Below, one piece after another: positions 145 to 16,323 of a DNA stretch of 64,000 bases. How positions within the stretch are numbered: position 1 is the stretch's first letter; each line of letters begins with the position of its first letter. Below the pieces are notes generated by a model. The model made no database searches. It saw only the letters and a list, made by a program, of their open reading frames with translations, and had not been told where the DNA came from. Source of the DNA: an uncultured Mucispirillum sp. Lineage in GTDB: Bacteria > Chrysiogenota > Deferribacteres > Deferribacterales > Mucispirillaceae. The stretch spans positions 1-64,000 of the forward strand of contig CALVEY010000011.1 of assembly GCA_944326705.1 (NCBI GenBank), given 5' to 3'. Position numbers and translations under genes: made by a program.

Positions 145-975
145 TTATTTTTTCTTCATATAGATTATACATGTACCTGCATTTTTCATTGTAAAATCTT
201 CTGAGATTTTATTCAATGTTTCTGAGTGTCCAAGACACAGATAGCCTGGTTCTGTAAGCATATTATAGAAGTTTTTAATAGTTCTTTGTTTGCCGTCCAT
301 ATCAAAATAAATAAGAACATTACGGCAGAAAATAACATCAACTTTGCCTATAAGGCTTGTAATAGCTGGAGTTGTAATATTGCCTGTGTTAAAACGAACA
401 TGCCTTTTTATATCTTCTTTAATAAAGTAGCTTTGACCTTGAACATCAAAGTTTCTCATAAAGTCAGCCGGCACACCTCTAAAAGATGCCTGCCTGTATT
501 CGCCTTTTTTAGCTAAAGCTACAACTTCTGAGTTAATATCTGTTGCAATAATATCTATTGATGCTTTATCAAATAATCCTGCATTTTTAAGCAGTATTGC
601 AATAGAATAAGGCTCTTCACCTGTGGAGCATGGTGCTGACCATATTTTTATACTTTTTTTACCAGCCTTAATTAAGTCAGGCACTATGTTTGATACAAGA
701 TAATCAAGCTGACCACGTTCCCTTAAGAAATATGTTTCATTAATAGTAACAAGGTTAATTAATGTATCAAGCTCCTGCCTTTTTTTAATATCATATTTTA
801 AATAATAAATATAATCTTTAAAAGTAGTAAAGTTAAGGTCTGCAAGTCTTTTTGAAAGCCTGTTTTCAAGCAGGTATTTTTTGTTTTCAGCAAACATTAT
901 ACCTGAATTTCTATAAATTATATCCTTTAACTCTACAAATTCTTGGTCGTTTATTTTAATTGAATTTAAAAGCAT
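145..975 (-). CDS. cheR: Chemotaxis protein methyltransferase CheR
   Basis: CheR uses S-adenosylmethionine to methylate glutamates on chemoreceptors in the cytoplasm, giving sensory adaptation with CheB. The 276-aa length is normal. The N-terminal helical CheR domain (about 1-80) precedes a Rossmann methyltransferase domain carrying the signature WSAPCSTGEEPYSIA and, later, CRNVLIYFD. I see no C-terminal extension such as TPR repeats. It is the last gene of a minus-strand operon behind a PP2C phosphatase, a STAS protein and a STAS-HEAT protein, starting 5 nt after the STAS-HEAT stop. This placement, apart from cheB about 12 kb upstream, suggests a link between the phosphatase switch and adaptation (inference). 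Confidence 0.95.
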   Translation of the reverse strand: MLLNSIKINDQEFVELKDIIYRNSGIMFAENKKYLLENRLSKRLADLNFTTFKDYIYYLKYDIKKRQELDTLINLVTINETYFLRERGQLDYLVSNIVPDLIKAGKKSIKIWSAPCSTGEEPYSIAILLKNAGLFDKASIDIIATDINSEVVALAKKGEYRQASFRGVPADFMRNFDVQGQSYFIKEDIKRHVRFNTGNITTPAITSLIGKVDVIFCRNVLIYFDMDGKQRTIKNFYNMLTEPGYLCLGHSETLNKISEDFTMKNAGTCIIYMKKK

Positions 976-980
976 AACAT

Positions 981-2399
981 CTACTCTCCAATCTCGCCTA
1001 TGATATGCTCAAGGATATATTTATTAGTTTCATCTTTAAGTCTAGCTCTCAATAAACTATCATAGCCCACTGGTTTTTGTTCAAGTATTATATTAACTGC
1101 TTTATACCTGACAAGCCAGCTTTCATCTGTATTATACAACTTCATAGCAGCTGTTAATGCAACAGGGCCATGCATAAGGCTTAAGGAATTTAATGCTTCT
1201 TTTCTTATATCCTCGTTTGCATCATCTAGTTTTGATAATAAAAACGAAGGGTCTACACCTTTACATTTTCCTAATACTTCTATGATTGCAAGCTTAACAT
1301 TCTGCTCTACTTTATCATAATAGCTTTCAATTTTTTTGATTATGTTTTCATCATCTATTCCAGCTAATGATTTAGCAGCAAAAAAGCCAACCCAGTTATC
1401 ACTGTCGCCAATTTTTTCAACAAGTGTTGATGTAAATTCACCACTGCCGCGTCTTGATAAACCGGAAGCTGCTGCCTCCCTTAACTGTATAGAATTATCA
1501 TCAAGTAAACCAAGTAATATTTTACCAACACGCTCATCTTTAAATAATGCTATTTTCTTAGCAAGCTGAACGCGGACAGCTTCTTCTTTTTCTTCTTTAA
1601 TTGCATTTGATAAATATTCAAAAGCTTTATCATCATTAATAAGGGATAAAGCATATATTGCAACAAGACGAATTCTCATATCACTGTCATGCAGATATTT
1701 AGCAAGTTTTTCAGAATCAGTGTCATCTGAAAGCAGTGCAATAGAAGCTGCTGCTGCTTCCGGCACACCTATCTCTTTACTTGTAAGGTAGCTGTAAAGC
1801 TGTTCTTTAGACTCAGTATCACCTATCCAGCCAAGCACTAATATAGCAGCTGATTTTACACTTGCTTCATTAGCTGCAAGAGCTTTCCTGTATATTTCTA
1901 TATTCTGATAATCCTGAGCTTTGCCCATAGTAAGTAAGGCATACTCAACAAGCAGAGGGTTACCGCCTTCTATGATTTCTATAAGTTTATTTTGTATTTT
2001 ATCATCATAGTTTGCAGCTAAATATTCTGAAACTGTGCCAGCTTTTTCTGTATCTAAAAATCTTTCAAAAAGAGCATCAAGTGGATATGACGCAAAATCA
2101 TCTTTAATTACAAACAATTTTTGAAGATTAGTAGACTGCAGCACCTGAGCTATCTGGTCACAAACATTTAAAAGCTCAATGTTTATTTTCCTAACCATAG
2201 CTAATTTTTTAACAGCCACAAGCCCTGCTAAAAATTTACTTTGTATATAGGAGCATTTATATAAATCAATACCTATCAATACAACTTCGCTGTGTTCTTC
2301 AACAATATTGCATACTTCTGAAATATCAGATAAGTCGTTATCAGGGTTTATATGAGCTTTAAATACTCCATTTTTAATTTCGTATTGTAACTCACCCAT
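981..2399 (-). CDS. STAS-like domain fused to HEAT repeats
   Basis: This 472-aa soluble protein has no signal peptide or membrane segment. Residues 1-105 resemble a STAS (anti-sigma antagonist) fold: beta strands, a segment around residues 43-60 matching the phosphorylated loop of STAS proteins, and the typical helix after it. The usual D-S-S-G-L loop is altered here (Ile-Gln-Ser54-Lys-Phe). Residues 120-472 are about ten helical HEAT-type repeats with recurring A-L-x-x-D/N-D motifs, a scaffold for protein binding. It starts 4 nt after the stop of the single-domain STAS gene and precedes cheR by 5 nt. Inference: a scaffold output of a partner switch controlled by the neighbouring phosphatase. 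The domain calls come from pattern recognition; the exact target is unknown. Confidence 0.8.
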   Translation of the reverse strand: MGELQYEIKNGVFKAHINPDNDLSDISEVCNIVEEHSEVVLIGIDLYKCSYIQSKFLAGLVAVKKLAMVRKINIELLNVCDQIAQVLQSTNLQKLFVIKDDFASYPLDALFERFLDTEKAGTVSEYLAANYDDKIQNKLIEIIEGGNPLLVEYALLTMGKAQDYQNIEIYRKALAANEASVKSAAILVLGWIGDTESKEQLYSYLTSKEIGVPEAAAASIALLSDDTDSEKLAKYLHDSDMRIRLVAIYALSLINDDKAFEYLSNAIKEEKEEAVRVQLAKKIALFKDERVGKILLGLLDDNSIQLREAAASGLSRRGSGEFTSTLVEKIGDSDNWVGFFAAKSLAGIDDENIIKKIESYYDKVEQNVKLAIIEVLGKCKGVDPSFLLSKLDDANEDIRKEALNSLSLMHGPVALTAAMKLYNTDESWLVRYKAVNIILEQKPVGYDSLLRARLKDETNKYILEHIIGEIGE

Positions 2400-2403
2400 A
2401 ATA

Positions 2404-2721
2404 TTAACCTAATGCAGCTGCTTCTGTATCGTAAATTTTAAATACTTTATCAAGCCCTGTAAAAGAGAACATTTCTCTAATATCTGAGTTCATATCGCAA
2501 AGAGATACTTCTTTTTTATTTTTGCTTGCTGTTTTAAATAAGTCTATGATTTCTCTTAAACCAGATGAGTTCATATATACTACACTTTTAAAAGATAAAA
2601 CAACTGCATTTCCTTTATCAAGCAGTGTATTAATTTCTGCTTTTACCTGCGCACCAGTTTGCGCATTAATTTCGCCTTCAAGGTAGGCTACGTTTTTGCC
2701 GTTTACATTTTTAATATTCAT
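2404..2721 (-). CDS. STAS-domain anti-sigma factor antagonist
   Basis: A 105-aa single STAS domain of the SpoIIAA/RsbV kind. Family members are phosphorylated on a serine or threonine by an anti-sigma kinase and dephosphorylated by a PP2C phosphatase, and so sequester or release a partner. The key loop reads MNSSGLREI, with candidate phosphoserines at 52 and 53, and the length is normal. It lies between the PP2C phosphatase (29 nt upstream) and the STAS-HEAT gene. The matching HATPase-type kinase is not in this window. The target may therefore be a distant anti-sigma factor or a chemotaxis component (inference). Confidence 0.9.
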   Translation of the reverse strand: MNIKNVNGKNVAYLEGEINAQTGAQVKAEINTLLDKGNAVVLSFKSVVYMNSSGLREIIDLFKTASKNKKEVSLCDMNSDIREMFSFTGLDKVFKIYDTEAAALG

Positions 2722-2750
2722 ATCATATCCTCCTAATATTATTAATATGA

Positions 2751-4349
2751 CTATTTATTTTCACTTTCTTTCTTATTTCTTTTGATTACAAGTATAGTAA
2801 TGTCATCTTCAAAAGGTGCTCCAGCTGTAAAATCTTTAACATCTTCCATAACTTCTTTTATAAGACGCTCTGCAGGATAGTCGCTGAACATCATAAGCTT
2901 TGATACAAGCCTGTCATATCCATACTGCTCACGCTGGCTGTTCATTGCTTCTACTAAGCCGTCTGTATACATAAAGAATATATCTCCCTCTTCTATATGC
3001 CATTTCTTTTCTTCAAAATTTAAGCCTTCAAATGTTCCTAAAAACATACCTGATGCTGTTATTTTTTTAACAATAAACTCTGATGAATCAAAGAAAAGCA
3101 CAGGGTTATGACCTGCTGATGCAAGGTTAAACATACCATTATTAGTATTTAACACTGCATAAAACATAGTAACAAAGTCTTTTGTATGTATATTATCGCA
3201 TAAAATATCATTAACCATAGTAAGAGCATCTGATGCAGAAATAACATCAAATGTATAGCTTCGCATAATAGCACGGGTAATTGCCATAATAACTGCTGCT
3301 GGTGTGCCATGCCCTGATACATCTGCTACAACAAAGCCCCAGTAGTTATTACTCATTTGTATACAGTCATAATAGTCGCCGCCTGCCTGCTCTGCTGGAA
3401 TATATGTTGCGCCAAAATCATACCCTGCAACCTGTGGAAGATTTTCAGGCAGTAAGCTTTCCTGAATATGACCAACCTGCCTTAATTCATCTTCTATTAA
3501 TGCCTGAACTGTTTTTAATTTTTCATTCATGCGTAAAAGGTCTGTATTCATAATAGACATTTGACGCTGCTTTTCTTTAATCTCTTCCTGACTTTCTCTA
3601 ATATCATCAATCAGTTTAATTTCTCTTGTAGTATCCCTTAAACTTTCAACGATATATTTATCAAATTTAGAAAACATAATTGTCATATGCTTATCATGCA
3701 TCTGCCTTAATGCTTTAATATTGCTTGTTTTAAAAGGACAGTCTTTGCATGGCTCTTCAAAGCCGTAAACATTATAGCATTTAATGTTTTCAATTTCTTT
3801 TCTGCCAAGCTGAGCAGTTTCTTTCAGCAGTTTATTAATAGTTTTAATGCTATATTCATCATCAACTATCATAATTCCCTGAGCCATATTATCAATAGCT
3901 TTTTCTAAAAATGTTATTTCGCTGTCTCTAATATTTCTTTCATGGGCTAATCTGAAATTATTTGCCTTAGATTCTTTACTTGAATGAGTTAATTCTAATC
4001 TTTCTCTTTCTATGTCTGTAATATCAATAAATGAAGATACATATAAATCATCAGATATGCGGGTAAATGCAGAGCGGGCAAAAATTCGCTCACCTTTATA
4101 TGTAACAATATCTTTTATAATAACTTTTGTACCTGTAAAATCTTTGTTTTCTGCAATAGGACAGTTTTTACATGGTTTATTATATCCATGAACAACATTA
4201 TAACACTTTTTATTAAGCATTTCATCAGGATGCTTTCCAGAAATTAATGACACTCTGCCGTTTGTAAATTTAATATTAAATTCACTGTCAACTGCTATAA
4301 TGTACGAATCAAGACCATCAAAAAGCCTTGTTAATGTGTTTAAGTCCAT
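2751..4349 (-). CDS. PAS-PAS-PP2C (SpoIIE/RsbU-type) serine phosphatase
   Basis: A 532-aa cytoplasmic phosphatase expected to dephosphorylate the STAS protein encoded next door. Two PAS-like sensor domains (about 5-110 and 145-245) are joined by a coiled coil (about 250-290) to a SpoIIE-type PP2C domain (about 300-525). The metal-binding motifs are visible: GGDYYD at 323-328, ADVSGHG from 342, YTDGLVEA, and EDDITILVI near the end. Each PAS domain carries a similar cysteine cluster: Cys49/60/63 and Cys191/201/204, both ending Cys-x-x-Cys-Pro. This may bind a metal or sense redox state (inference). It is the first gene of the operon ending in cheR, with GAGTGGG as a plausible ribosome site. Confidence 0.93.
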   Translation of the reverse strand: MDLNTLTRLFDGLDSYIIAVDSEFNIKFTNGRVSLISGKHPDEMLNKKCYNVVHGYNKPCKNCPIAENKDFTGTKVIIKDIVTYKGERIFARSAFTRISDDLYVSSFIDITDIERERLELTHSSKESKANNFRLAHERNIRDSEITFLEKAIDNMAQGIMIVDDEYSIKTINKLLKETAQLGRKEIENIKCYNVYGFEEPCKDCPFKTSNIKALRQMHDKHMTIMFSKFDKYIVESLRDTTREIKLIDDIRESQEEIKEKQRQMSIMNTDLLRMNEKLKTVQALIEDELRQVGHIQESLLPENLPQVAGYDFGATYIPAEQAGGDYYDCIQMSNNYWGFVVADVSGHGTPAAVIMAITRAIMRSYTFDVISASDALTMVNDILCDNIHTKDFVTMFYAVLNTNNGMFNLASAGHNPVLFFDSSEFIVKKITASGMFLGTFEGLNFEEKKWHIEEGDIFFMYTDGLVEAMNSQREQYGYDRLVSKLMMFSDYPAERLIKEVMEDVKDFTAGAPFEDDITILVIKRNKKESENK

Positions 4350-6281: not shown

Positions 6282-6537
6282 GATTATAATCCTTTAATGC
6301 CTGAGCCATTTTTTCATCAGGATATGTGGCAATTACTTTAAGGTCATATATTACATCATAGCCGCCATTATAATACAAAAAAGCATCAGGCGGCAGTTTT
6401 GATGCAGTTTGAAAACGAGTTGCTGCAGTGGTTACTTCATATACATATACCCTTGCTGCAGCAACTTGAACTAATAATATTAATAATATTACAACAGTAA
6501 AACTAACCGTTGTTATTTTTTTGAGAGATAAGCTCAT
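6199..6537 (-). CDS. Small exported protein overlapping cheA and the OmpA-like gene
   Basis: A 112-aa protein starting MSLSLKKITTVSF, followed by a strong hydrophobic signal or anchor (about residues 9-26, ending VQVAAA). The rest is a short polar domain with Y-N-G-G-Y-D and a Pro/Trp-rich tail ending YYWWR. The family is not recognised. I chose the start at 6537 because it gives a clean signal peptide; a longer start at 6588 adds 17 residues, including a Cys-Cys-Trp run, before it. The gene overlaps the cheA stop by 35 nt and the next gene by 83 nt, so it is flanked by overlaps on both sides. The envelope signal, rather than conservation, is what supports it as real. Confidence 0.65.
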   Translation of the reverse strand: MSLSLKKITTVSFTVVILLILLVQVAAARVYVYEVTTAATRFQTASKLPPDAFLYYNGGYDVIYDLKVIATYPDEKMAQALKDYNLEENNSNSLVHNPVPRNIPKKPYYWWR

Positions 6538-8659
6538 CAATTTTATCCAGCAGCAGCTGCTGATTAATAGGTTTTTGAATAAATGCATTCATACCAGAAG
6601 CATTCATTTTTTTCCTGTCAGCAGGCTCCATTCTTGCAGACATTGCAATTATAGGTATATCGTAGCCTTTTTCTCTTATGCTGCGGGCAAGTCTGAATCC
6701 GTCCATATCAGGCATCATAATATCACTGATAATTAAATCAATACTGCTGTCTCTTTCAAGAAGGCTTAAAGCATCTTTACCAGATGGAGCTTCAACTGTT
6801 TCTATCCAGTCTTGAGATTCAAGAATTTTTTTAGTGATTTTTCTATCAGTTGAAGAGTCATCACATATTAATACTTTAACTGCATTTGTTTTCTTAGAAG
6901 CAGTCTGAACAGCAGCGCGTTTATTAGATGAAAGTTTTTTAGTGTTTCTGATTCTTCTAGGCATATTTTGTGCAACTTCAATTACACCTGCTACATCTAA
7001 AATTAATCTAACACGACCGTCACCAGTAATAGTTGCACCTGCAATACCAGGGTTGCCGCCTAAGTAATCGCCAAGAGATTTAATAACGATTTCTTCCTGA
7101 CCGATTAATTTATCAACAATAAATCCTAACTGTTTTTCAGCCAGTGCAACAACTACAACATATATTTCATCCTGCTCAAGTTCATCAAGAGCAAAAGCTT
7201 CATCAAGTCTGATAAGAGATAATACTCTGTCTCTTAATTTTAATACTTCCCTGCCTTCAAAAGAGTGGATTTCTTCATTTGTAATACGAACAGTTTCAAC
7301 AACTGATGCAAGAGGTATTGCAAATGTTTCACCTGCCACTTCAACAAGAAGTGCTTGAATAATAGCAAGTGTTAATGGAAGTTTTAAATAGAATGTTGAA
7401 CCTTCATCTATTTTAGAATCAATAGTAATAATACCATTTAATTTTTCAATATTTGTGCGGACAACGTCCATACCAACGCCACGGCCTGAAATATTAGTAA
7501 TTTTTTCAGCAGTAGAAAAGCCTGGTTTGAAAATAAGTGCAAATGCCTGTTTGTCATCCATACTGTTTGCTTCGTCAACAGTAATAACACCTTTTTCTAT
7601 AGCTTTGCGTTTTAATTTGTTAGGGTCCATACCAGCGCCGTCATCTTTGATTTCAATAACAACATGGTTACCTTCATGGTATGCTGATAAGTTTACAGTT
7701 CCCATTCTTGGTTTGCCTTTTGCAAGACGAACATCAGGAGTTTCTACACCATGGTCGCATGAGTTTCTAATCATGTGTAAAAGCGGGTCGCCGATAGATT
7801 CAATAACTTGTTTATCAAGCTCTGTTTCTTCACCTGATATAATCAACTCTATCTCTTTACCAGTATCTCTTGCAATATCACGAACAACCCTTGGGAATTT
7901 ATTAAATACTTTACCGATTGCAATCATTCTTGTTTTCATAATTGCAAGCTGTAATTCTGTAGTATTCATACCAATTGAGTTTGTAGCTACTAAAAGCTGC
8001 TCAACAAGATATTCATTTTCAAATTTATTTTCAAGCTCACCAGCAATCTGAGAAAGCATATTTCTACTTAAAACAAGCTCACCAACTAAGTTAACAAGTG
8101 AGTCTAAACGGCTAACATCAACACGGATTGTCTGCTCAACAGGAGTAGCCTGATGCACAACTTTTGGAGCTTCCTGTTTAGGTGCAGCCTGTGGTTTTGG
8201 TGCAGGGGCTGCTGCAGGCTGTGTTGCTTGAGCAGGCTGAGCTGCTGAAGTATTTTTTGTTTTTGAAGTAAGCTTGCCTTCGCTTGCAAGTTTTAAATCT
8301 TCAATAACAGAAGTGCAGTCTGTATTATCTGTTCCGTTTTCTATGTCACTGATAATCTGTTTTGTTTTATCTACGAACTCTAAAAGAGTGTCCATAATTT
8401 CACGGGTAACTACCATTTCACCTTTACGAAGTTTATTTAAGATATCTTCAGCATGGTGAGTTAATTCCGCTAATTTATTAAACCCAAGGAATGAAGATGA
8501 ACCTTTCATTGTATGGGCGCCACGGAAGATTTTGTTTAAAAGCTCCAAATCATTTTGGTTGCTTTCAAGCTCAACAAGGTCATGGTCTAAATTTTCAATT
8601 ATTTCATTAGTCTCAACTAAAAAGTCTTGGACTAATTCCTGCATATCATCATTATTCAT
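6503..8659 (-). CDS. cheA: Chemotaxis histidine kinase CheA with C-terminal receiver domain
   Basis: A 718-aa hybrid kinase that phosphorylates CheY and CheB in response to chemoreceptors. In order: an HPt domain with phospho-acceptor His49 (AHTMKGSSSF); a Pro/Ala/Gln-rich linker (about 135-170) in place of a clear CheY-binding P2 domain; the dimerisation helices (DSLVNLVGELVLSRN); a HATPase domain with N box (RNSCDHGVE), G1 (DDGAGMD) and G2 (GRGVGMDVV); a CheW-like domain; and a C-terminal receiver (about 590-715, with ISDIMMPDMDG). The receiver may act as a phosphate sink or feedback site (inference). No cheW is present in the window. It follows the cheZ-like gene by 17 nt. Confidence 0.97.
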   Translation of the reverse strand: MNNDDMQELVQDFLVETNEIIENLDHDLVELESNQNDLELLNKIFRGAHTMKGSSSFLGFNKLAELTHHAEDILNKLRKGEMVVTREIMDTLLEFVDKTKQIISDIENGTDNTDCTSVIEDLKLASEGKLTSKTKNTSAAQPAQATQPAAAPAPKPQAAPKQEAPKVVHQATPVEQTIRVDVSRLDSLVNLVGELVLSRNMLSQIAGELENKFENEYLVEQLLVATNSIGMNTTELQLAIMKTRMIAIGKVFNKFPRVVRDIARDTGKEIELIISGEETELDKQVIESIGDPLLHMIRNSCDHGVETPDVRLAKGKPRMGTVNLSAYHEGNHVVIEIKDDGAGMDPNKLKRKAIEKGVITVDEANSMDDKQAFALIFKPGFSTAEKITNISGRGVGMDVVRTNIEKLNGIITIDSKIDEGSTFYLKLPLTLAIIQALLVEVAGETFAIPLASVVETVRITNEEIHSFEGREVLKLRDRVLSLIRLDEAFALDELEQDEIYVVVVALAEKQLGFIVDKLIGQEEIVIKSLGDYLGGNPGIAGATITGDGRVRLILDVAGVIEVAQNMPRRIRNTKKLSSNKRAAVQTASKKTNAVKVLICDDSSTDRKITKKILESQDWIETVEAPSGKDALSLLERDSSIDLIISDIMMPDMDGFRLARSIREKGYDIPIIAMSARMEPADRKKMNASGMNAFIQKPINQQLLLDKIDELISQKNNNG

Positions 8660-8676: not shown

Positions 8677-9309
8677 TTATACACCAAATTCTTTAAGGAG
8701 TTTATCAACTAAATCTTGGTCTTGCAATATTTCTTTAGTATCTTTAAATTTATCTAAAACATCAACATCTATAACATTCTGTTTTATACCAAGTTTGATT
8801 AAAACAGATGCTAATCTTTCTTCTAATGAATTTACAACTTTTATGCTTTCATTAATCTTTGCTTTAGTAACTTCTTTAAACTCTAATGAAGATACTATAT
8901 CACAGCATATATCTTGACCTTGAATGGCACACTCCGACAGTCTGTCAAGCATACCGCCGGCACGCGCATAATCCCCTGATGTTATAAACTGCCTTACAAG
9001 CTCAAGATTTTCTTTAATATCATCAATATTAAAGTTTATCTTATCTACAAATGCCAGAACATCTTCTGATGCACTTTTAGAATCATTAATTACACCGTTA
9101 AGCACTTTTTCAAAAGCAGGCAGGTCGCTGTAAGCTCCCTCTATAGCTGATGAAACAGTCTGTAATTTTTTTAATGAATCATTAAAATACTGAGCTATAT
9201 CATACAGCTCGCTTTCAGGCTCAACAGTAACATCTACAACATCATATTTACCTTCATTAATGTTGCGTGCTATGCTCAATAATTCATTCAGGTCTTTGAA
9301 TTCGCTCAT
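8677..9309 (-). CDS. cheZ: CheZ-like CheY-phosphate regulator with altered active site
   Basis: A 210-aa, largely helical protein between cheY (1 nt upstream) and cheA. Its last 14 residues (197-210, DQDLVDKLLKEFGV) match the CheY-binding tail of CheZ, and residues 140-170 align with the CheZ helix that reaches into the CheY active site. In Escherichia coli CheZ that helix carries Asp143 and the catalytic Gln147 in D-L-T-G-Q. Here the same spacing gives Glu146-Val-Thr-Lys-Ala150, so the catalytic glutamine is missing. It may be a degenerate phosphatase, use another residue, or act as a CheY-P binding or localisation factor. The alignment is by eye, so the gene symbol is tentative. Confidence 0.7.
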   Translation of the reverse strand: MSEFKDLNELLSIARNINEGKYDVVDVTVEPESELYDIAQYFNDSLKKLQTVSSAIEGAYSDLPAFEKVLNGVINDSKSASEDVLAFVDKINFNIDDIKENLELVRQFITSGDYARAGGMLDRLSECAIQGQDICCDIVSSLEFKEVTKAKINESIKVVNSLEERLASVLIKLGIKQNVIDVDVLDKFKDTKEILQDQDLVDKLLKEFGV

Positions 9310-9310
9310 T

Positions 9311-9688
9311 TTATAAATCCAGTAATTTAAATACCTTTTCTTGTAATGTTTCAGGGGTAAAAGGTTTTACAACATAGTTGTTTACACCGCTGCGTAATGC
9401 TGTTAAAATATCTTCTTTTGCAGCTTCTGTTGTAATCATTAAAATAGGTAAATCTTTATACTCATCTTTTGCTCTAACTGCCTTAACAAAAGTAAGTCCA
9501 TCCATTTCTGGCATATTCCAGTCTGTAACAATCATATCTACTTTATTTTTAGACATAACTTCCAGAGCTTCTACACCATTTCCTGCTTCAAGAATGGTTT
9601 CAAAACCAAGCTTTTGAAGAGTATTTTTAATAATTCTTCTCATAGTAGAAGAATCATCAACTGTTATAATTGAGTGTGCGTAACCCAT
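9311..9688 (-). CDS. cheY: Chemotaxis response regulator CheY
   Basis: A 125-aa single receiver domain that carries the chemotaxis signal from CheA to the flagellar motor. The key residues are all present: the acidic pair Asp11/Asp12, the phospho-acceptor Asp56 (TDWNMPEMDG), Thr86/Thr87 and Lys108 (VVKPFTPE). There is no output domain. It is preceded by the fliM-fliN pair (59 nt) and followed directly by the cheZ-like gene. Its target is probably the N-terminal peptide of FliM encoded just upstream. Confidence 0.96.
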   Translation of the reverse strand: MGYAHSIITVDDSSTMRRIIKNTLQKLGFETILEAGNGVEALEVMSKNKVDMIVTDWNMPEMDGLTFVKAVRAKDEYKDLPILMITTEAAKEDILTALRSGVNNYVVKPFTPETLQEKVFKLLDL

Positions 9689-9747
9689 TTAAACCTCCGC
9701 AAATATAGGTTAGTATCCTTTATATTTATTCATTATTTTTAAATATG

Positions 9748-10659
9748 TCAATCTTTTAATTTCCTAATACGCTCTGCTTTGCTGACAATCTCTTTAATTC
9801 TAAAGCCAAAATAGCCGTCAACAATAACAACTTCCCCTCTTGCAATGACTTTATCATTAATCGCAAGTTCAATAGGGTCATCAGCATTTTGCTCTAATTC
9901 TACAATATTACCAGGTCCAAGTCCTAAAATATCTTTTAAAAATAATTTAGCACTGCCCATTCTAACACTTATAGGTATATCAATATCTAAAAGCAAGTCA
10001 AGATTTTTAGGAGTATTGCCGCCGCTTTCTGCAGGCTCATCATCAAATGAAATGCCAGCATTGCCAAGCAGTGCTTCAATACTGCCGTCATCTACTAAAT
10101 TGTTGTCGTCCTGACCGCCAAGTTTTGCTTCTATATTTGTATCACATACAAATCTGAAATTTAATTCAGCACCGTCAACATCACCTTTTAAGTCTATACA
10201 GTAATATTCAGAGCAGTGAAAAAGAGCTGATGATGAATTTTTTATAACATCTTCACTTTTAAATGAAAACTTGTTACTAAATGCTTCTTCAAAAGGAACA
10301 TTTAAACTGCTGAGCAGCTGAGAAGTTAACTCCTGCACTGCATCTTTAGTATCATCATCTATTTCATCTTTACTTTCGCCGTCACCTGCAAGCATAAAAT
10401 CTGCAAGTTTCGTAATATCTCTTGTTCTAAAAAGCAGCCCTGTTTCATAACCGCCGTTATCTTCTTTTGCAACAACAAGTGTTTCATTTTCATAAGCAGT
10501 AAACAGTGTGTCTGCATCACATTTTACCATCTCATCAAGAGATAAATTTACTGTTCTAGAGCTTATGGCTGATAAAGAAGATGCAAATGTAGAAACAATA
10601 AGCCCGGAAAATTTTTCTAAGCTGGGACTGTTAATAAAATTAACCGTTTCTGTCATCAT
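9748..10659 (-). CDS. fliN: Flagellar motor switch protein FliN, FliY-type
   Basis: A 303-aa protein of the motor C-ring, longer than the roughly 130 aa of enteric FliN. The last 75 residues are the SpoA/FliN domain (SVRMGSAKLFLKDILGLGPG, then VIARGEVVIVDGYFGFRI). The N-terminal 170 residues resemble a CheC/FliY-type domain, which in other bacteria can dephosphorylate CheY-P; I see D-x-x-x-E-L-T-S-Q but not the full E-x3-N catalytic pair. The gene overlaps fliM by 20 nt, and two adjacent ATGs (10659 and 10656) are possible starts. It belongs with fliM as one transcription unit. Confidence 0.93.
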   Translation of the reverse strand: MMTETVNFINSPSLEKFSGLIVSTFASSLSAISSRTVNLSLDEMVKCDADTLFTAYENETLVVAKEDNGGYETGLLFRTRDITKLADFMLAGDGESKDEIDDDTKDAVQELTSQLLSSLNVPFEEAFSNKFSFKSEDVIKNSSSALFHCSEYYCIDLKGDVDGAELNFRFVCDTNIEAKLGGQDDNNLVDDGSIEALLGNAGISFDDEPAESGGNTPKNLDLLLDIDIPISVRMGSAKLFLKDILGLGPGNIVELEQNADDPIELAINDKVIARGEVVIVDGYFGFRIKEIVSKAERIRKLKD

Positions 10660-11668
10660 CCTGCTCCGTAGTTGCTCTTGTTATCTTGATAGCTTTTTTA
10701 ATACCAAGAATACCCAAAGCTCCAAAAAATTTATGTTTATTACTAATATATATGTTTAAAGGGCGTTTAGCTTTTTTACTGAGAATAACAGTATCGTTTT
10801 CTCTTAAATTAAGTATTTCCCCTATTTTTAATTTTGTTCTGCCAAGCTCTACAATTAATGGCACATTAATATTTTCAAGCAGCTCTAATATGCGGGATTC
10901 ATATTCACCAGACCTGCCTTTTTTTGCACCAATAAGCCAGTCCTGAGAGCTGATTTTATTAAGTATAGGCTCTAAAATAAGTGCAGGCAGACAAATATTC
11001 ATCATACCAGTAGCCTCACCAAACTTAACTTCAAATACAACAAGCACTACAACTTCATTTTGTGCAACAATTTGTATTACATGCGGGCTGTTTTCACTTA
11101 ATTCTTTTTTAAGCCTAACATTTGGAATAATCTGCTTCCACACATCTTCCAAATCTTTTAAAATAAGAGTAATAATACTGTCTATAATAGTCATTTCCAA
11201 CGGCGTAAGCTCACGCACATGGAAAAGAGGAAGCCCCTGACCGCCTAAAAGCTTATCTACAATAGGGAAGATAAGTGACGGGTTAATCTCTAAAACAGCA
11301 TTACCCTGTAAAGGTATCATAGAGATAATATTAAAGCTTGTTGGGTCTGGCAGTGACATAAGGAATTCTCCATAAGTCATCTGGTCAACACCTACAAGAG
11401 AAATATCTGTAATAGTTCTTAAGAAGCTTGATAAGTTAGAGCTGAAGTTTCTGGCAAACTTATCATGCAGGTTTCTAATAGAACGCAGCTGCTCTTTTGA
11501 AACCCTGTCTGGCCTTCTAAAATCATATACAGATATTTTTTTCGGGACAAAATCGGGCGCAAAGTCATCAAAATCATCACCATCACCGCCACTTCCGCTG
11601 CCTGTTGGGTCATCTGAAACAGTTGATAACAGGGCGTCAATTTCATCCTGACTTAATATATCAGCCAT
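10640..11668 (-). CDS. fliM: Flagellar motor switch protein FliM
   Basis: FliM is the C-ring protein that binds CheY-P and sets rotation direction. The 342-aa length is typical. The N-terminal CheY-binding peptide is clear (ILSQDEIDALLS), then an acidic Gly/Asp-rich linker, the CheC-like middle domain (residues about 55-245, with LHDKFARNFSSNLS and DQMTYGEFLMSLP), and a C-terminal FliN-like domain (about 255-335). The start has AAAGGTG about 6 nt upstream. It lies 150 nt after cheB, and that gap holds a small hairpin and possibly a promoter. Confidence 0.97.
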   Translation of the reverse strand: MADILSQDEIDALLSTVSDDPTGSGSGGDGDDFDDFAPDFVPKKISVYDFRRPDRVSKEQLRSIRNLHDKFARNFSSNLSSFLRTITDISLVGVDQMTYGEFLMSLPDPTSFNIISMIPLQGNAVLEINPSLIFPIVDKLLGGQGLPLFHVRELTPLEMTIIDSIITLILKDLEDVWKQIIPNVRLKKELSENSPHVIQIVAQNEVVVLVVFEVKFGEATGMMNICLPALILEPILNKISSQDWLIGAKKGRSGEYESRILELLENINVPLIVELGRTKLKIGEILNLRENDTVILSKKAKRPLNIYISNKHKFFGALGILGIKKAIKITRATTEQDDDRNG

Positions 11669-11688
11669 TAATCACCTTTATATATGTA

Positions 11689-11708
11689 CTAATTTACTTC
11701 TAAATTAG
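11689..11708 (-). promoter_or_regulatory. Inverted repeat in the fliM leader
   Basis: A perfect 8-bp inverted repeat (11689-11696 with 11701-11708, 4-nt loop) lies 20 nt upstream of the fliM start. It has no following T run for the minus strand, so it looks more like an operator or leader hairpin than a terminator. A weak sigma70-like pair (TTGTAA and TCTAAT, 16 nt apart) lies just upstream. Confidence 0.4.
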
Positions 11709-11818
11709 ATACTAGTGTCATTATATTACAATTATTTTATGCTAATAGTCAATTAAATATTTTATTTAGCAGTTTTATTTAACCTTATTAACAAATTTAT
11801 TTTGCTTTATTAATAAAC

Positions 11819-12958
11819 TTATTTAACATGATAAGCTATTCTTGCAGCTATTTCATCAAGTGGAACAATTTCATCTGCAATACCAGCTTCGACAACTGCC
11901 CGCGGCATACCATACACTATACATGATGGTTCATTCTGAGCTATAATTGTGCCGCCCATTCTTTTAAGGTTAGTTAAACCTTTGCAGCCGTCACTTCCCA
12001 TACCAGTCATAATTACGCCTAAACATTCTTTGCCGTATAATTCTGCAATAGAGTCAACCATTACATCAACACCAGGAATATTAAACACATTACTTGGCTC
12101 TGTTGAAAGCTCTGTATATACAGAAGGACCTACTTTTTTAAATTTTAAGTGATAGCCGCCTTTTGCAATGTATACTACATTTGGCTCTAATTTTTCTTTA
12201 CCTTGAGCTTCTACAACTTCTACTTTAGATAAAGTATTAAGTCTTGAAGCAAGTGACTGTGTAAAGTTTGGCGGCATGTGCTGAGTAACTACAACAGGCA
12301 CTCCTAAATCAGCAGGAAGTAATGGGATTACTCTCTGCAGTGACTGCGGGCCGCCAGTTGATGTACCTAATGCAACAACTCTTTTTATACCTGTTTTATT
12401 AATAACAACTCTTTTTGAGCCGTCAGTATTTCCTCCTTGTGCACCATGAGCAAATGGAGTAGAAACATGTGGAGCCTGAGTAGCAAATGTTCCAGATAAT
12501 TTATATGATGGAACCTGCTGAGACTGAGAAGGAGCAGAGTGAGTTAAAAGTCTAACAATGCTTTTATTTTTTGCGAATTTTCTGATTTTATCTTTCAACC
12601 CTCTTTCAATATCTGCGCCGCCAAATGACTGAGAATCTTTTGTCATAAAATCAACAGCACCTAAATCTAATGCTTTTAAAGTAGCATCTGCGCCCTCTTT
12701 TGTAAGTGAGCTTACCATGATTACAGGTGTTGGATTTTTTTTCATAATTAATTCTAAGGCTGTGATACCATCCATTGTAGGCATCTCTATATCCATGGTG
12801 ATAACATCTGGGTGAAACTGTTCTGCCATTTCCACACCTTCTTTACCATTTTTAGCAAGACCTACTATCTCAATATCTGGTTCTCCGGAAAGTAAAGATT
12901 CCAGTGCTTTTCTCATAAAAATAGAATCATCTACAATTAAGACTTTTATTTTATTCAT
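11819..12958 (-). CDS. cheB: Chemotaxis response regulator protein-glutamate methylesterase CheB
   Basis: CheB removes methyl groups from receptor glutamates (and deamidates glutamines) once CheA phosphorylates it. The 379-aa protein has a receiver domain (1-125, phospho-acceptor Asp56), a Ser/Gln/His-rich linker (about 138-185) and the methylesterase domain. The catalytic triad is visible: Ser200 in GTSTGGPQSL, His227 in QHMPPNFTQSLA and Asp323 in MTGMGSDG. Its start overlaps the fliA stop by 8 nt, so the two are probably co-translated. It is the last gene of the flhF-flhG-fliA-cheB run. Confidence 0.97.
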   Translation of the reverse strand: MNKIKVLIVDDSIFMRKALESLLSGEPDIEIVGLAKNGKEGVEMAEQFHPDVITMDIEMPTMDGITALELIMKKNPTPVIMVSSLTKEGADATLKALDLGAVDFMTKDSQSFGGADIERGLKDKIRKFAKNKSIVRLLTHSAPSQSQQVPSYKLSGTFATQAPHVSTPFAHGAQGGNTDGSKRVVINKTGIKRVVALGTSTGGPQSLQRVIPLLPADLGVPVVVTQHMPPNFTQSLASRLNTLSKVEVVEAQGKEKLEPNVVYIAKGGYHLKFKKVGPSVYTELSTEPSNVFNIPGVDVMVDSIAELYGKECLGVIMTGMGSDGCKGLTNLKRMGGTIIAQNEPSCIVYGMPRAVVEAGIADEIVPLDEIAARIAYHVK

Positions 12959-13664
12959 AAATATCTTTTAGCCTCCTTTTTAACTTCTGCATAGCTGATG
13001 TATGAATCTGTGATACTCTTGATTCTGTAATATCTAAAACTTCTGCAACCTCTTTCATAGTAAGCTCTTCATAATAATAAAGTGTTACTACCTGACGTTC
13101 TTTTTCAGAAAGTTTGTCTATTTCTTCTGCCATTCTTTCTGTAAGATTAGTTTTCATAACTTCATCTTCTGGAGTTAATCCTGTACTTCTTACAAAATCT
13201 ACAAGGCTTGTATCGTCCCCATCACCAACAGTTTCATCTAATGATAACATTTTTTCATTTTCTTGTAAACCCATAAGACGATAAATATCTTCTTCATTGT
13301 ATTCTGTATTGTCTATTATTTCCTGAACTGTTGGTTTTCGTCCAAGCTTGCCAGAAAGCTCATTAACAGCTGCATCAAGAGCTTTTAATCTTGTTCTAAC
13401 ATTTCTAGGCAGAAAATCAAGATTGCGTAAAGAATCTAATATAGCACCTTTTATACGCCTTTCTGCATAAGTGCTGAAACTAACATTACGGCTTTTATCA
13501 AACCTGTCCATTGATTCAATTAAACCAATAGATGCTGCAGAAAAAAGGTCATCAACATCAACACTGTCTGGCAGTGTGCCTTTAAGTCTGATTGTCCATG
13601 ACTTTATCTTAGGCAGAAATTCTGCTACAATATTCTGCTTTTCTTCTTCACTAAATTTTTCCAC
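12951..13664 (-). CDS. fliA: RNA polymerase sigma factor FliA (sigma-28)
   Basis: A 237-aa sigma70-family factor that directs transcription of late flagellar genes. Region 2 is seen in DLFSAASIGLIESMDRFD and FSTYAERRIKGAILDSLR; region 3 in the R-x-V-R-x-R-L-K-A-L segment; region 4 in LSEKERQVVTLYYYEELTMKEVAEVLDITESRVSQ (given here only as its landmark residues, about 185-220). The length and the flhF-flhG-fliA-cheB gene order fit FliA rather than a general stress sigma factor. I found no clear sigma-28 promoter in the intergenic regions of this window. Confidence 0.95.
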   Translation of the reverse strand: MEKFSEEEKQNIVAEFLPKIKSWTIRLKGTLPDSVDVDDLFSAASIGLIESMDRFDKSRNVSFSTYAERRIKGAILDSLRNLDFLPRNVRTRLKALDAAVNELSGKLGRKPTVQEIIDNTEYNEEDIYRLMGLQENEKMLSLDETVGDGDDTSLVDFVRSTGLTPEDEVMKTNLTERMAEEIDKLSEKERQVVTLYYYEELTMKEVAEVLDITESRVSQIHTSAMQKLKRRLKDIYE

Positions 13665-13679
13665 CTACTGCTCCCTGAA

Positions 13680-13886
13680 TTAAAGGATTTTCCAATAGTT
13701 TTTAAGTATTCTTGCAAGACTGTTTGTTAATACTTTTACAACATAGTATACTATAAAAAATAAAACAATATCTCTTGCAAAATATGTAACTTTTAAGTCT
13801 GGCACCAATAGTATTTTAAATAAAAAAGATGCCATCATAACAATAGATGCGATTAATATAGGATAATATTTAAGAGATGTAATCAT
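13680..13886 (-). CDS. Small two-helix membrane protein between flhG and fliA
   Basis: A 68-aa hypothetical protein with two predicted membrane helices (about 7-27 and 40-58) and a basic C-terminal tail. It begins with an ATGA overlap on the flhG stop and ends 15 nt before fliA, so it is embedded in the flagellar operon. A short gene often sits at this point in flagellar operons, but I cannot assign a family. It may be a membrane partner of FlhG or simply operon-specific (inference). Confidence 0.7.
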   Translation of the reverse strand: MITSLKYYPILIASIVMMASFLFKILLVPDLKVTYFARDIVLFFIVYYVVKVLTNSLARILKNYWKIL

Positions 13887-14740
13887 TTAAATACTCCTTT
13901 AAATAAATCATATACATTGGCACTTTTTTGTTTTTCTACAGGCGCTCCAATAAAGCGTCTTGCACAGTCTTGTATATCTCTTGAAAATGCTGTTTTCGGG
14001 TCTAATATACTTACAGGTTTTTGAGCCCTGATAGCTTTACGCACATTTTTATCATCACGAAGATGACCTAAAAGTCGTAAATCCATATTTAAAAATTTAG
14101 ATGCAACATTTTTAAGGCTTGCAAATACATTATCAGAGTTTTGTATATCATCTACCCTGTTAAAAACAACATTAACAAGTTTAATATCATAAGTCTGTTT
14201 GATTACTTTCATAAAGGCGTAAGCATCAGTTATAGCAGTAGGCTCTGGCTGAGTTACAACAATTATTGTATCTGAAATTGAGCTGAATCTGACAACAGAA
14301 TCAGAAATACCTGCACCAGTATCAAATATAATAAAATCATATCTGTCATCAAGAGTAATGAAAATATTAAATATTTTATCAAAATCTTCATCAGATAAAT
14401 GAGCAAGCTCCATAAAACCGCTTGATGCAGGAAAAACATCAAAGCCGTAAATATCTTTTTTCAAAATATCATCAATAGTTGCTCTGCCCTCTAAATATTT
14501 TTTTATTGTAGCAGTCACTGATAAAGACAACATAATATCCACATTGGCAAGACCTAAGTCTGCATCAAATACTAAAACTTTCTTGCCAAGATTTGCCAGC
14601 TGGCACGCAAAGTTAACTGTAAAGTTAGTTTTACCAACGCCACCTTTTCCACTGGATACAGAAATATAATGGCTGTTTCTGTTAGCTTCCCATGCTCTTC
14701 TTCTTAAAGTAAATGCCTGATCTGTCATTTGTCGCTCCAT
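13883..14740 (-). CDS. flhG: MinD-like ATPase FlhG (YlxH), flagellar number regulator
   Basis: A 285-aa P-loop ATPase of the MinD/ParA family that limits flagellar number and stimulates the FlhF GTPase. The deviant Walker A motif is GKGGVGKTN (from residue 31), and VFDADLGLANVD follows. The N-terminus carries DQAFTLR at 7-13, the D-Q-A-x-x-L-R element that activates FlhF in characterised homologues. The gene overlaps the flhF stop by 16 nt, which supports this start. The C-terminal amphipathic stretch may bind membrane. Confidence 0.96.
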   Translation of the reverse strand: MERQMTDQAFTLRRRAWEANRNSHYISVSSGKGGVGKTNFTVNFACQLANLGKKVLVFDADLGLANVDIMLSLSVTATIKKYLEGRATIDDILKKDIYGFDVFPASSGFMELAHLSDEDFDKIFNIFITLDDRYDFIIFDTGAGISDSVVRFSSISDTIIVVTQPEPTAITDAYAFMKVIKQTYDIKLVNVVFNRVDDIQNSDNVFASLKNVASKFLNMDLRLLGHLRDDKNVRKAIRAQKPVSILDPKTAFSRDIQDCARRFIGAPVEKQKSANVYDLFKGVFK

Positions 14741-16323
14741 AAAGTAGGTATTTCCTGTAACATTCTCTTAGCAATTTTCTTGCCATCTGGTATTTCCATA
14801 TCATCAGGTACATTCTGCCCTGTTGTAACAAGTAAAAGCGGCAGCTTCTTTTTTACAGGAATATTTATAAGCGGTCCAAAATATTTCGTTTCGTCCAGCT
14901 TTGTAAAAATAAGATAATCTGGCTCTAAAACCTCATATCTTTCAAATGTATCATAAAGCTCCATATGGTTTGATGCCATAGAAAGCACTAATGCAGTAGT
15001 TATACGGGAATCAACCTTAAAAAAATCTCTGATACCTGCAATCTGGCTTGTATCAAACTGGCCGCGTCCCATAGAATCTATTAACACACAGTCATATTTA
15101 TCTTTTACCTTAGTAACAACACGCAGAAGCTCTTCAGGACTTGTGGCTACATAAAGCGGCAGATTAACTATTTCTGCATAAGTTTTTAACTGTTCAACAG
15201 CGCCTATTCTAAAATTATCAACAGTAATAAGGCATACTTTTTTGCCATATTTTAATGTCATAGTTGCTGCGATTTTTGCAATAGTAGTAGTTTTGCCAAC
15301 ACCTGTAGGTCCTGCAAGAGCTACTACTTTATTCATCATAACATCATAGTAGCTTTTTTCTACAGGTATAAGCTCTGCAAGTTTATCTATTGCTATACTT
15401 TTTATCTGGGCAGATGTTGCTTCCTTGCCCTCTATTCTTGATTCTATATCTTTTAACAGCCTGTAAGATATTATATCATCTACACCATTTTTAAGAAACA
15501 GTGCATGGTAGTCTTTTAATTTTGCAGGCAAATCTATAACTATATTATCGGATATATTGCTCTGCATATTAGCAAGCTGTTTTTTAATATCTCCGATATC
15601 TTCAAGTAAATCAGTAAATTTATCAAGCCCTACAGCTTTAATTACCGCAGCCATTCTTTCTGCATTTAATTCTGCCTGAGTTTTAGCCTGCTCCTGCTGT
15701 TTTTTTATATCCTGCTCATCATCTTCATACTTATGATGCTTTGTATGCTTTTTAGGTGCAGGTGCTTTATACTCTTCTTCCTCTTCAACAGGCGGCATAT
15801 ATGCTGCAGGTATATCATCTTCTATAACCTGCCTTTTTCTAACAGGCGGCGCATAAAATGATTCATCATCTGTAATACCTGCTTCTGCCATTGCTTCTGC
15901 TAAATAATCATCATGCATATCATAAGTGTTTTTATACTTCTGATGTGCATAAGGACCATAAGATGCACTTGCTGCTGACGGCTGTTTTTTTACAGGCTGC
16001 ACTGGTACCTGCTGCTGTTCTGTATATACAGGGCGTTTAACTGGCTGTTTTTTAACTGTTTTAGTAGTGTATGCTGATGGATAGCTTTCATAACCATACC
16101 CACTGCCGCTGCTGCTTTGTGCTGATGGTCTCTGCTTATTAAGGGGAATACCATCATACTCTACTGCTGCAGTAACCTCTAAAACAGGGCGGGCAAATAG
16201 TCCAAAATTATTGCTTTTCATTACCTTGCGTGTAGATAAAATAACAGCATCAGGACCTAAATCCTCTTTTATCATACGCAGTGCTTCTTTCATATCTGAT
16301 ACTTCATATTTTTTTATCTTCAT
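14725..16323 (-). CDS. flhF: Flagellar biosynthesis GTPase FlhF
   Basis: An SRP-type GTPase that marks the site of flagellar assembly. The 532-aa protein has the FlhF N-terminal B domain (1-60), a long low-complexity Gln/Pro/Lys/Glu insert (about 65-215), an N domain, and an SRP54-type G domain (from about 330). G1 is GPTGVGKTTT at 338-347 and G4 is TKLDE at 474-478. The G3 motif reads Asp-Ser-Met-Gly-Arg (416-420) instead of the usual Asp-Thr-Ala-Gly-Arg. The insert is unusually long. It is the first gene of the minus-strand flagellar run; a 181-nt AT-rich gap separates it from rarD. Confidence 0.95.
   Translation of the reverse strand: MKIKKYEVSDMKEALRMIKEDLGPDAVILSTRKVMKSNNFGLFARPVLEVTAAVEYDGIPLNKQRPSAQSSSGSGYGYESYPSAYTTKTVKKQPVKRPVYTEQQQVPVQPVKKQPSAASASYGPYAHQKYKNTYDMHDDYLAEAMAEAGITDDESFYAPPVRKRQVIEDDIPAAYMPPVEEEEEYKAPAPKKHTKHHKYEDDEQDIKKQQEQAKTQAELNAERMAAVIKAVGLDKFTDLLEDIGDIKKQLANMQSNISDNIVIDLPAKLKDYHALFLKNGVDDIISYRLLKDIESRIEGKEATSAQIKSIAIDKLAELIPVEKSYYDVMMNKVVALAGPTGVGKTTTIAKIAATMTLKYGKKVCLITVDNFRIGAVEQLKTYAEIVNLPLYVATSPEELLRVVTKVKDKYDCVLIDSMGRGQFDTSQIAGIRDFFKVDSRITTALVLSMASNHMELYDTFERYEVLEPDYLIFTKLDETKYFGPLINIPVKKKLPLLLVTTGQNVPDDMEIPDGKKIAKRMLQEIPTLWSDK

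Follow-up and report, generated by a model that had tools for sequence, protein, structure and literature searches.

The regulation of sigma factors is the main role known for partner switches, and the Rsb and SpoII systems combine a SpoIIE-family phosphatase, a STAS protein with a conserved serine and an RsbW-type kinase. In Pseudomonas aeruginosa the HsbR-HsbA-FlgM system ties a PP2C/STAS switch to flagellar regulation. Such switches are already known, as is CheR, and individual HEAT proteins of che clusters have also been described (Cpc7, PMC11514114; OE2401F, PMC2666748). The locus described here joins these elements in the window, by which we mean the whole 64,000-nucleotide stretch of DNA analyzed (contig CALVEY010000011.1, positions 1 to 64,000, from an uncultured Mucispirillum sp.): a PP2C phosphatase, a STAS protein and a fusion of a STAS domain to a HEAT solenoid precede cheR in one unit. 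The chances appear about even that in this unit a partner-switching module has been added to a HEAT-CheR pair serving chemotaxis adaptation. In the open-access literature no paper on a STAS-HEAT protein or on a general HEAT-CheR lineage was found, and STAS, PP2C and chemotaxis were met together only in stressosome work and reviews; because subscription literature lay outside the search, the novelty of the general HEAT-CheR pairing is unproven.

The four-gene unit and its conservation

The four genes are separated by 29 nt (PP2C-STAS), 4 nt (STAS to STAS-HEAT) and 5 nt (STAS-HEAT to CheR), in agreement with a preliminary description of the window that gave a one-strand run spaced by 4-29 nt, and all four open reading frames (ORFs) were recovered:

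2751-4349, - strand: PP2C/SpoIIE phosphatase, two PAS-like domains at its N terminus, 532 amino acids (Pfam, motifs)
2404-2721, - strand: single-domain STAS protein, 105 amino acids (Pfam, alignment)
981-2399, - strand: STAS-HEAT fusion, 472 amino acids (Pfam, TIGR00377, AlphaFold model)
145-975, - strand: CheR receptor methyltransferase, 276 amino acids (Pfam)

The Pfam E values are 2.6e-48 for SpoIIE, 3.3e-16 for STAS, 2.5e-32 for HEAT_2 and 1.4e-53 for CheR. Of the two PAS domains that had been placed on the phosphatase, one exceeds the Pfam cut-off and the second is a weak match. A contig scan returned relatives of the window from Mucispirillum only, at 82-97% identity. Across the phylum Deferribacterota, adjacent members of the unit lie within 60 nt of each other in 37/39 cases for PP2C-STAS, 36/37 for STAS to STAS-HEAT and 35/36 for STAS-HEAT to CheR, and the last two genes overlap by 4 nt in 22/36. 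The order also holds in the Chrysiogenes-like f10 genomes (G048-G050), which we take to be probably Chrysiogenes/Desulfurispirillum; in G048 a FliD gene stands upstream in place of CheA, and no CheY or FliM gene was seen close upstream in f10, while STAS-HEAT-CheR persists. Because the order is conserved phylum-wide, including this distant group with its different upstream genes, it is far beyond chance and not a local accident, and the possibility raised at the outset that it might be peculiar to this genome did not materialize. No second CheR was found in the Mucispirillum genome, so the CheR of the window presumably serves all receptors that use methylation.

The roles given to the PP2C and STAS proteins are those established for their families. 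The catalytic motifs of the phosphatase (GGDYYD, DVSGHG, YTDG, and DDIT) are all intact, and the solved PP2C structures closest to it include the response-regulator phosphatases 3eq2/3es2, which we take to be HsbR-type. Each PAS-like domain bears a Cx(n)PCxxCP motif that could serve metal binding or redox sensing. The two motifs read CYxVxHGYxxPCxxCP and CYNVYGFxxPCxxCP, and the second is retained in most relatives. In the STAS protein, Ser-52 within YMNSSGL aligns with the serine that is phosphorylated in SpoIIAA/TM1442. The first serine of this motif is kept in 39 of 41 homologues and is gone in two Flexistipes-type genomes without this PP2C, where YMNSSGL has become YLDKEGL (NSSG to DKEG). 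In the Flexistipes-type genomes G016 and G023 neither CheR nor this PP2C was found, and one unrelated PP2C of 1074 amino acids remains; Flexistipes sinusarabici is described as non-motile and without cheB, cheR, cheV and cheW (PMC3236037). The joint loss of the phosphatase and of its presumed target serine supports PP2C acting on Ser-52 of STAS. Two copies of a 439-amino acid ORF (L062:3461-4780 and 11731-13050), identical over their first 120 residues, flank the Flexistipes STAS/STAS-HEAT pair and are likely an insertion element.

The STAS-HEAT protein is comprised of a STAS domain (residues ~1-100, positions ~2100-2399) and a HEAT solenoid (residues ~107-470, positions ~990-2081). The STAS part of the Mucispirillum protein scores weakly with Pfam STAS_2 (E=0.037), whereas the anti-anti-sigma model TIGR00377 matches residues 4-100 with E=1.4e-4 and the STAS domain of its relatives exceeds the Pfam cut-off. 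The AlphaFold model (mean pLDDT 86) has a STAS-like beta/alpha order over residues 1-100 and HEAT helices from residue 107, and among solved folds it comes closest to the PP2A scaffold subunit and to alphaRep proteins of the HEAT type. A lost phosphosite in this STAS domain was considered and ruled out, as Ser-54 is present in nearly every homologue with residues at that position, the sole exception being a distant HEAT-only match (L078). The motif change in Deferribacteres concerns the Ser-Gly after Ser-54, which becomes Lys, Arg or another residue, and the Chrysiogenes-like group retains NSSG. The conservation of Ser-54 is no proof of a phosphosite, since a helix cap could equally account for it.

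HEAT-CheR pairing beyond the phylum

A STAS-HEAT profile was searched against 385 genomes, with at most four candidates scored per genome. That STAS-HEAT stays beside PP2C and cheR across genomes, as the preliminary description had put forward for checking, is largely borne out within the phylum; among the matches listed outside Deferribacterota, none is a full-length fusion matching from residue 1, and only the HEAT part is found. Fourteen of these outside HEAT loci were fetched, and in most of those with chemotaxis genes the HEAT gene lies directly before cheR. The best-scoring CheR was then sampled, independently of the HEAT matches, at 72 loci outside the phylum, nearly every one representing a family of its own. 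A HEAT gene lies directly upstream of cheR at 21 of these 72 loci, a fraction that is not a census as the sampling favors high scorers and one locus per family; the Mucispirillum STAS-HEAT gene likewise immediately precedes cheR and shares its strand. Only three other HEAT ORFs occur in the 72 loci (one downstream, one two genes upstream, and one HEAT-CheR fusion), giving a Fisher p=1.6e-11 for enrichment directly upstream of cheR relative to the other ORFs of the same loci, and all 22 HEAT proteins scanned match Pfam HEAT_2. The natural fusion (L197:3118-5133, + strand, 671 amino acids) belongs to an unrelated family, with HEAT from residue ~119 and CheR at residues 394-652.

In a maximum-likelihood tree the HEAT-linked and Deferribacterota CheRs fall in one group of 39 rows with moderate support (90/86), and the Mucispirillum CheR lies inside the HEAT-linked group. 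None of the 43 CheRs outside the 39-row group has a HEAT neighbor, and the HEAT label requires four changes on the tree compared with at least 17 in 200 shuffles. A strict single clade of HEAT-linked CheRs was rejected by the approximately unbiased test (p=0.0036), consistent with a few losses. The scaffold-CheR pairing turns out, as judged from gene order and the tree, to mark what appears to be an old and widespread CheR lineage.

Switch genes accompany this pair in some genomes outside the phylum. Two loci of one family (L130 and L132) have the order CheA-CheW-HEAT-CheR-CheB-kinase-STAS, the kinase having a pseudo-receiver and an RsbW-type build as in the Mucispirillum kinase described below, and one genome of another family (L134) has PP2C-RsbW-STAS-HEAT-RR-RR-CheR-CheY-CheY-CheZ-CheA, where RR is a response regulator. 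Another switch stands by CheR in an unrelated genome (L254:10463-13374), where the end of a cheR without HEAT linkage overlaps a STAS gene, the next gene encoding a PP2C-HATPase protein.

Gene surroundings and the unlinked kinase

The following features surround the unit or lie elsewhere in the genome:

4541-5515, - strand: conserved protein of 324 amino acids, next gene upstream of PP2C (ORF)
6503-8659, - strand: CheA (Hpt-dimer-HATPase-CheW-receiver), upstream (Pfam scan)
8677-16323, - strand: CheZ, CheY, FliY/N-type, FliM, CheB, FliA, FlhG and FlhF, upstream (CheZ by Pfam, the others named from sequence)
117-140, no strand assigned: hairpin of 10 bp after cheR, with its T-run on the + strand
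G000:C16:5142-5945: RsbW-type kinase, 268 amino acids, with an N-terminal pseudo-receiver and a C-terminal RsbW-type ATPase (HATPase_c_2)

An OmpA-like protein gene is also among the upstream same-strand genes. The 324-amino acid protein, located between CheA/OmpA and PP2C, has no Pfam or NCBIfam match and, by eye, a C-terminal membrane segment; its gene abuts or overlaps the PP2C gene in several relatives. The hairpin at 117-140 is real, and its role as terminator of the operon is doubtful because the T-run sits on the + strand. The single closing terminator of the preliminary description is therefore insecure, and relatives have more genes closely after cheR: in L064 the next gene is only 3 nt away, and in the 97% relative a gap of 182 nt separates cheR from genes for proteins of 98 and 257 amino acids, a DUF6115 protein and a protein of 343 amino acids. 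Genes 3' of cheR are not visible in the window because it begins at the contig end.

It had been noted that no anti-sigma kinase is nearby, which is correct locally and not genome-wide, as one clear RsbW-type kinase (G000:C16:5142-5945) is encoded elsewhere. It is the only protein of the genome over the Pfam HATPase_c_2 cut-off (66 bits). The assignment of its pseudo-receiver combines visual inspection with a relative's weak match, and the N-box-like EHGN and the G-box are conserved in the alignment. Full-length relatives occur in nearly all Deferribacterales searched, except incomplete metagenome-assembled genomes, and none was found in the reduced f9 genomes; in the f10 genomes G049 and G050 the relative adjoins cheW. 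FlgM was found in this genome and in 5/6 others tested, and is absent in non-motile Flexistipes. A further locus, G000:C29:14955-15521 (L116:5142-7152), encodes a receiver-PP2C protein whose C terminus matches HATPase weakly and, adjacent to it, a 100-amino acid protein, an HsbR/HsbA-like arrangement.

Proposed output of the switch and comparison with known systems

The best reading of gene order, overlap, fusion and lineage is that the output of the switch would be the HEAT scaffold of CheR and not, or not only, a sigma factor. In such a mechanism the unlinked kinase would phosphorylate Ser-52 of STAS, and PP2C would remove the phosphate once a cue, redox or similar, is sensed by its cysteine-rich PAS domains. 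Unphosphorylated STAS would then switch between two partners, the kinase and the STAS domain that STAS-HEAT carries, thereby freeing or occupying the HEAT scaffold, which would bind CheR and so control both how CheR reaches receptors and how far chemotaxis is adapted. For a putative physical HEAT-CheR interaction, the relevant observations are the natural fusion in L197 and the gene order. The preliminary suggestion that STAS-HEAT or CheR, in place of a sigma factor, is the output gains strong genomic support from the order, the overlap, the HEAT-CheR pairing and the operons elsewhere that combine kinase, STAS, HEAT and CheR, and is weakened by the unlinked kinase, the presence of FlgM and two lineages that partly uncouple the genes.

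Several observations weigh against a HEAT-CheR output. Because the kinase is unlinked and also occurs in genomes that encode further PP2C and STAS proteins, it may be shared among several pathways. Switch genes were found within ~10 kb in none of 20 other HEAT-clade CheR loci, compared with at least a STAS or PP2C in 6/20 control CheR loci, in a scan with local hidden Markov models built from few seeds that may miss distant members; switch genes as general companions of HEAT-CheR were rejected on this count (0/20). Flexistipes-type genomes keep STAS and STAS-HEAT side by side without CheR. Genus g2 (G010, G012-G014) retains PP2C, STAS, CheR and the kinase, but where the junction is intact, in three of the four genomes (in G014 a contig break divides it), 639-674 nt lacking an open frame and any detectable similarity take the place of STAS-HEAT, and searches of all four genomes found no STAS-HEAT at another site. 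STAS-HEAT is therefore not essential for keeping the other three genes. The g2 gaps (L109:7952-8590, L110:7237-7905, and L111:7315-7988) are AT-rich, and the three species have in common a short conserved stretch around ATATAGATTTTTTTAAAAACTATCTATATGATA. As L130, L132 and L134 have switch genes and none were found at the 20 other loci, the HEAT-CheR pair looks like an old core to which the switch was added more than once. The wider proposal, in which a large old CheR branch works as a two-protein unit with a HEAT scaffold and partner switching, with serine phosphorylation by RsbW-type kinases undone by PP2C, was attached to the scaffold several times independently as a second phospho-switch that gates adaptation, the Deferribacterota form being the STAS-HEAT fusion, is tentative and falls somewhat short of an even chance.

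An ordinary anti-sigma switch, in which PP2C-STAS acts through FlgM/FliA like Pseudomonas HsbA, or through some other sigma factor to which the unlinked kinase binds, and shares no more than a transcript with a separate STAS-HEAT/CheR pair, appears unlikely but carries appreciable weight. It stays in play because FlgM is in the genome, with the distribution given above, and unphosphorylated HsbA binds FlgM (PMC6482189). FliA in the same gene run, PP2C-STAS without STAS-HEAT in g2, the unlinked kinase and the structural closeness of the phosphatase to 3eq2/3es2 all agree with it. Such a switch would, however, not explain why the HEAT protein carries a STAS domain or why operons elsewhere join kinase, STAS, HEAT and CheR, and the receiver-PP2C locus, with its weak HATPase match and 100-amino acid neighbor, fits the HsbR pattern better. 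Rather improbable is a link from STAS-HEAT to CheY or the flagellar motor instead of CheR. The HEAT protein Cpc7 binds CheY7 (PMC11514114), the HEAT protein OE2401F binds CheD and OE2402F and is required for taxis (PMC2666748), and CheY, CheZ, FliM and CheA lie just upstream in the window; elsewhere, however, the HEAT gene directly precedes cheR (21/72) and is once fused to it, and f10 keeps STAS-HEAT-CheR with no CheY or FliM gene seen close upstream. Shared expression at the time of flagellar synthesis, with no biochemical link, has only a slight probability. Although flagellar and chemotaxis genes make up the entire region, and g2 and Flexistipes lose parts of the unit separately, the four genes stay together while the surrounding genes change, STAS-HEAT and CheR overlap by 4 nt in more than half of the cases, and HEAT-CheR pairing recurs in unrelated families.

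A partner switch acting on the HEAT scaffold of CheR would extend what is known of these modules. At this locus the genomic evidence favors, as output, an enzyme complex of chemotaxis, and it suggests that some bacteria may gate chemotaxis adaptation by protein serine phosphorylation. The HEAT-CheR linkage likewise offers a concrete candidate role for chemosensory HEAT proteins, which the open literature has noted singly (Cpc7 and OE2401F) and has not brought under one theme. With the Rsb and SpoII switches the Mucispirillum unit shares the phosphatase, the conserved STAS serine and an RsbW-type kinase in the genome; in contrast to them, it has neither a linked kinase nor a dedicated sigma-B/F-type sigma gene, has a STAS domain fused to a HEAT solenoid, and ends in cheR. 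FlgM is shared with the HsbR system, but the PP2C of the unit is PAS-PAS-PP2C without a receiver or kinase domain, the separate receiver-PP2C protein being more HsbR-like. In the stressosome proteins RsbR/RsbS the sensor is N-terminal and STAS C-terminal, whereas here STAS is N-terminal and HEAT C-terminal. Cpc7 is likewise a HEAT protein of a chemosensory cluster, Che7 of Myxococcus xanthus, and we take its gene to be MXAN_6961. CheR7 is MXAN_6960 and Mcp7 is MXAN_6962, with MXAN_6961 between them (PMC3945109). Cpc7 is reported to bind CheY7 and is not known to have a STAS domain or PP2C/STAS partners. OE2401F of Halobacterium salinarum, also a HEAT protein in a che region, acts between the Che proteins and the archaellum (PMC2666748); it differs in being archaeal, in having HEAT repeats only and in adjoining CheF (DUF439). 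CheR-TPR fusions, like the HEAT-CheR fusion in L197, place a solenoid repeat on CheR, but the repeat is TPR and not HEAT, and these fusions are typical of alternative-function pathways (PMC3447774).

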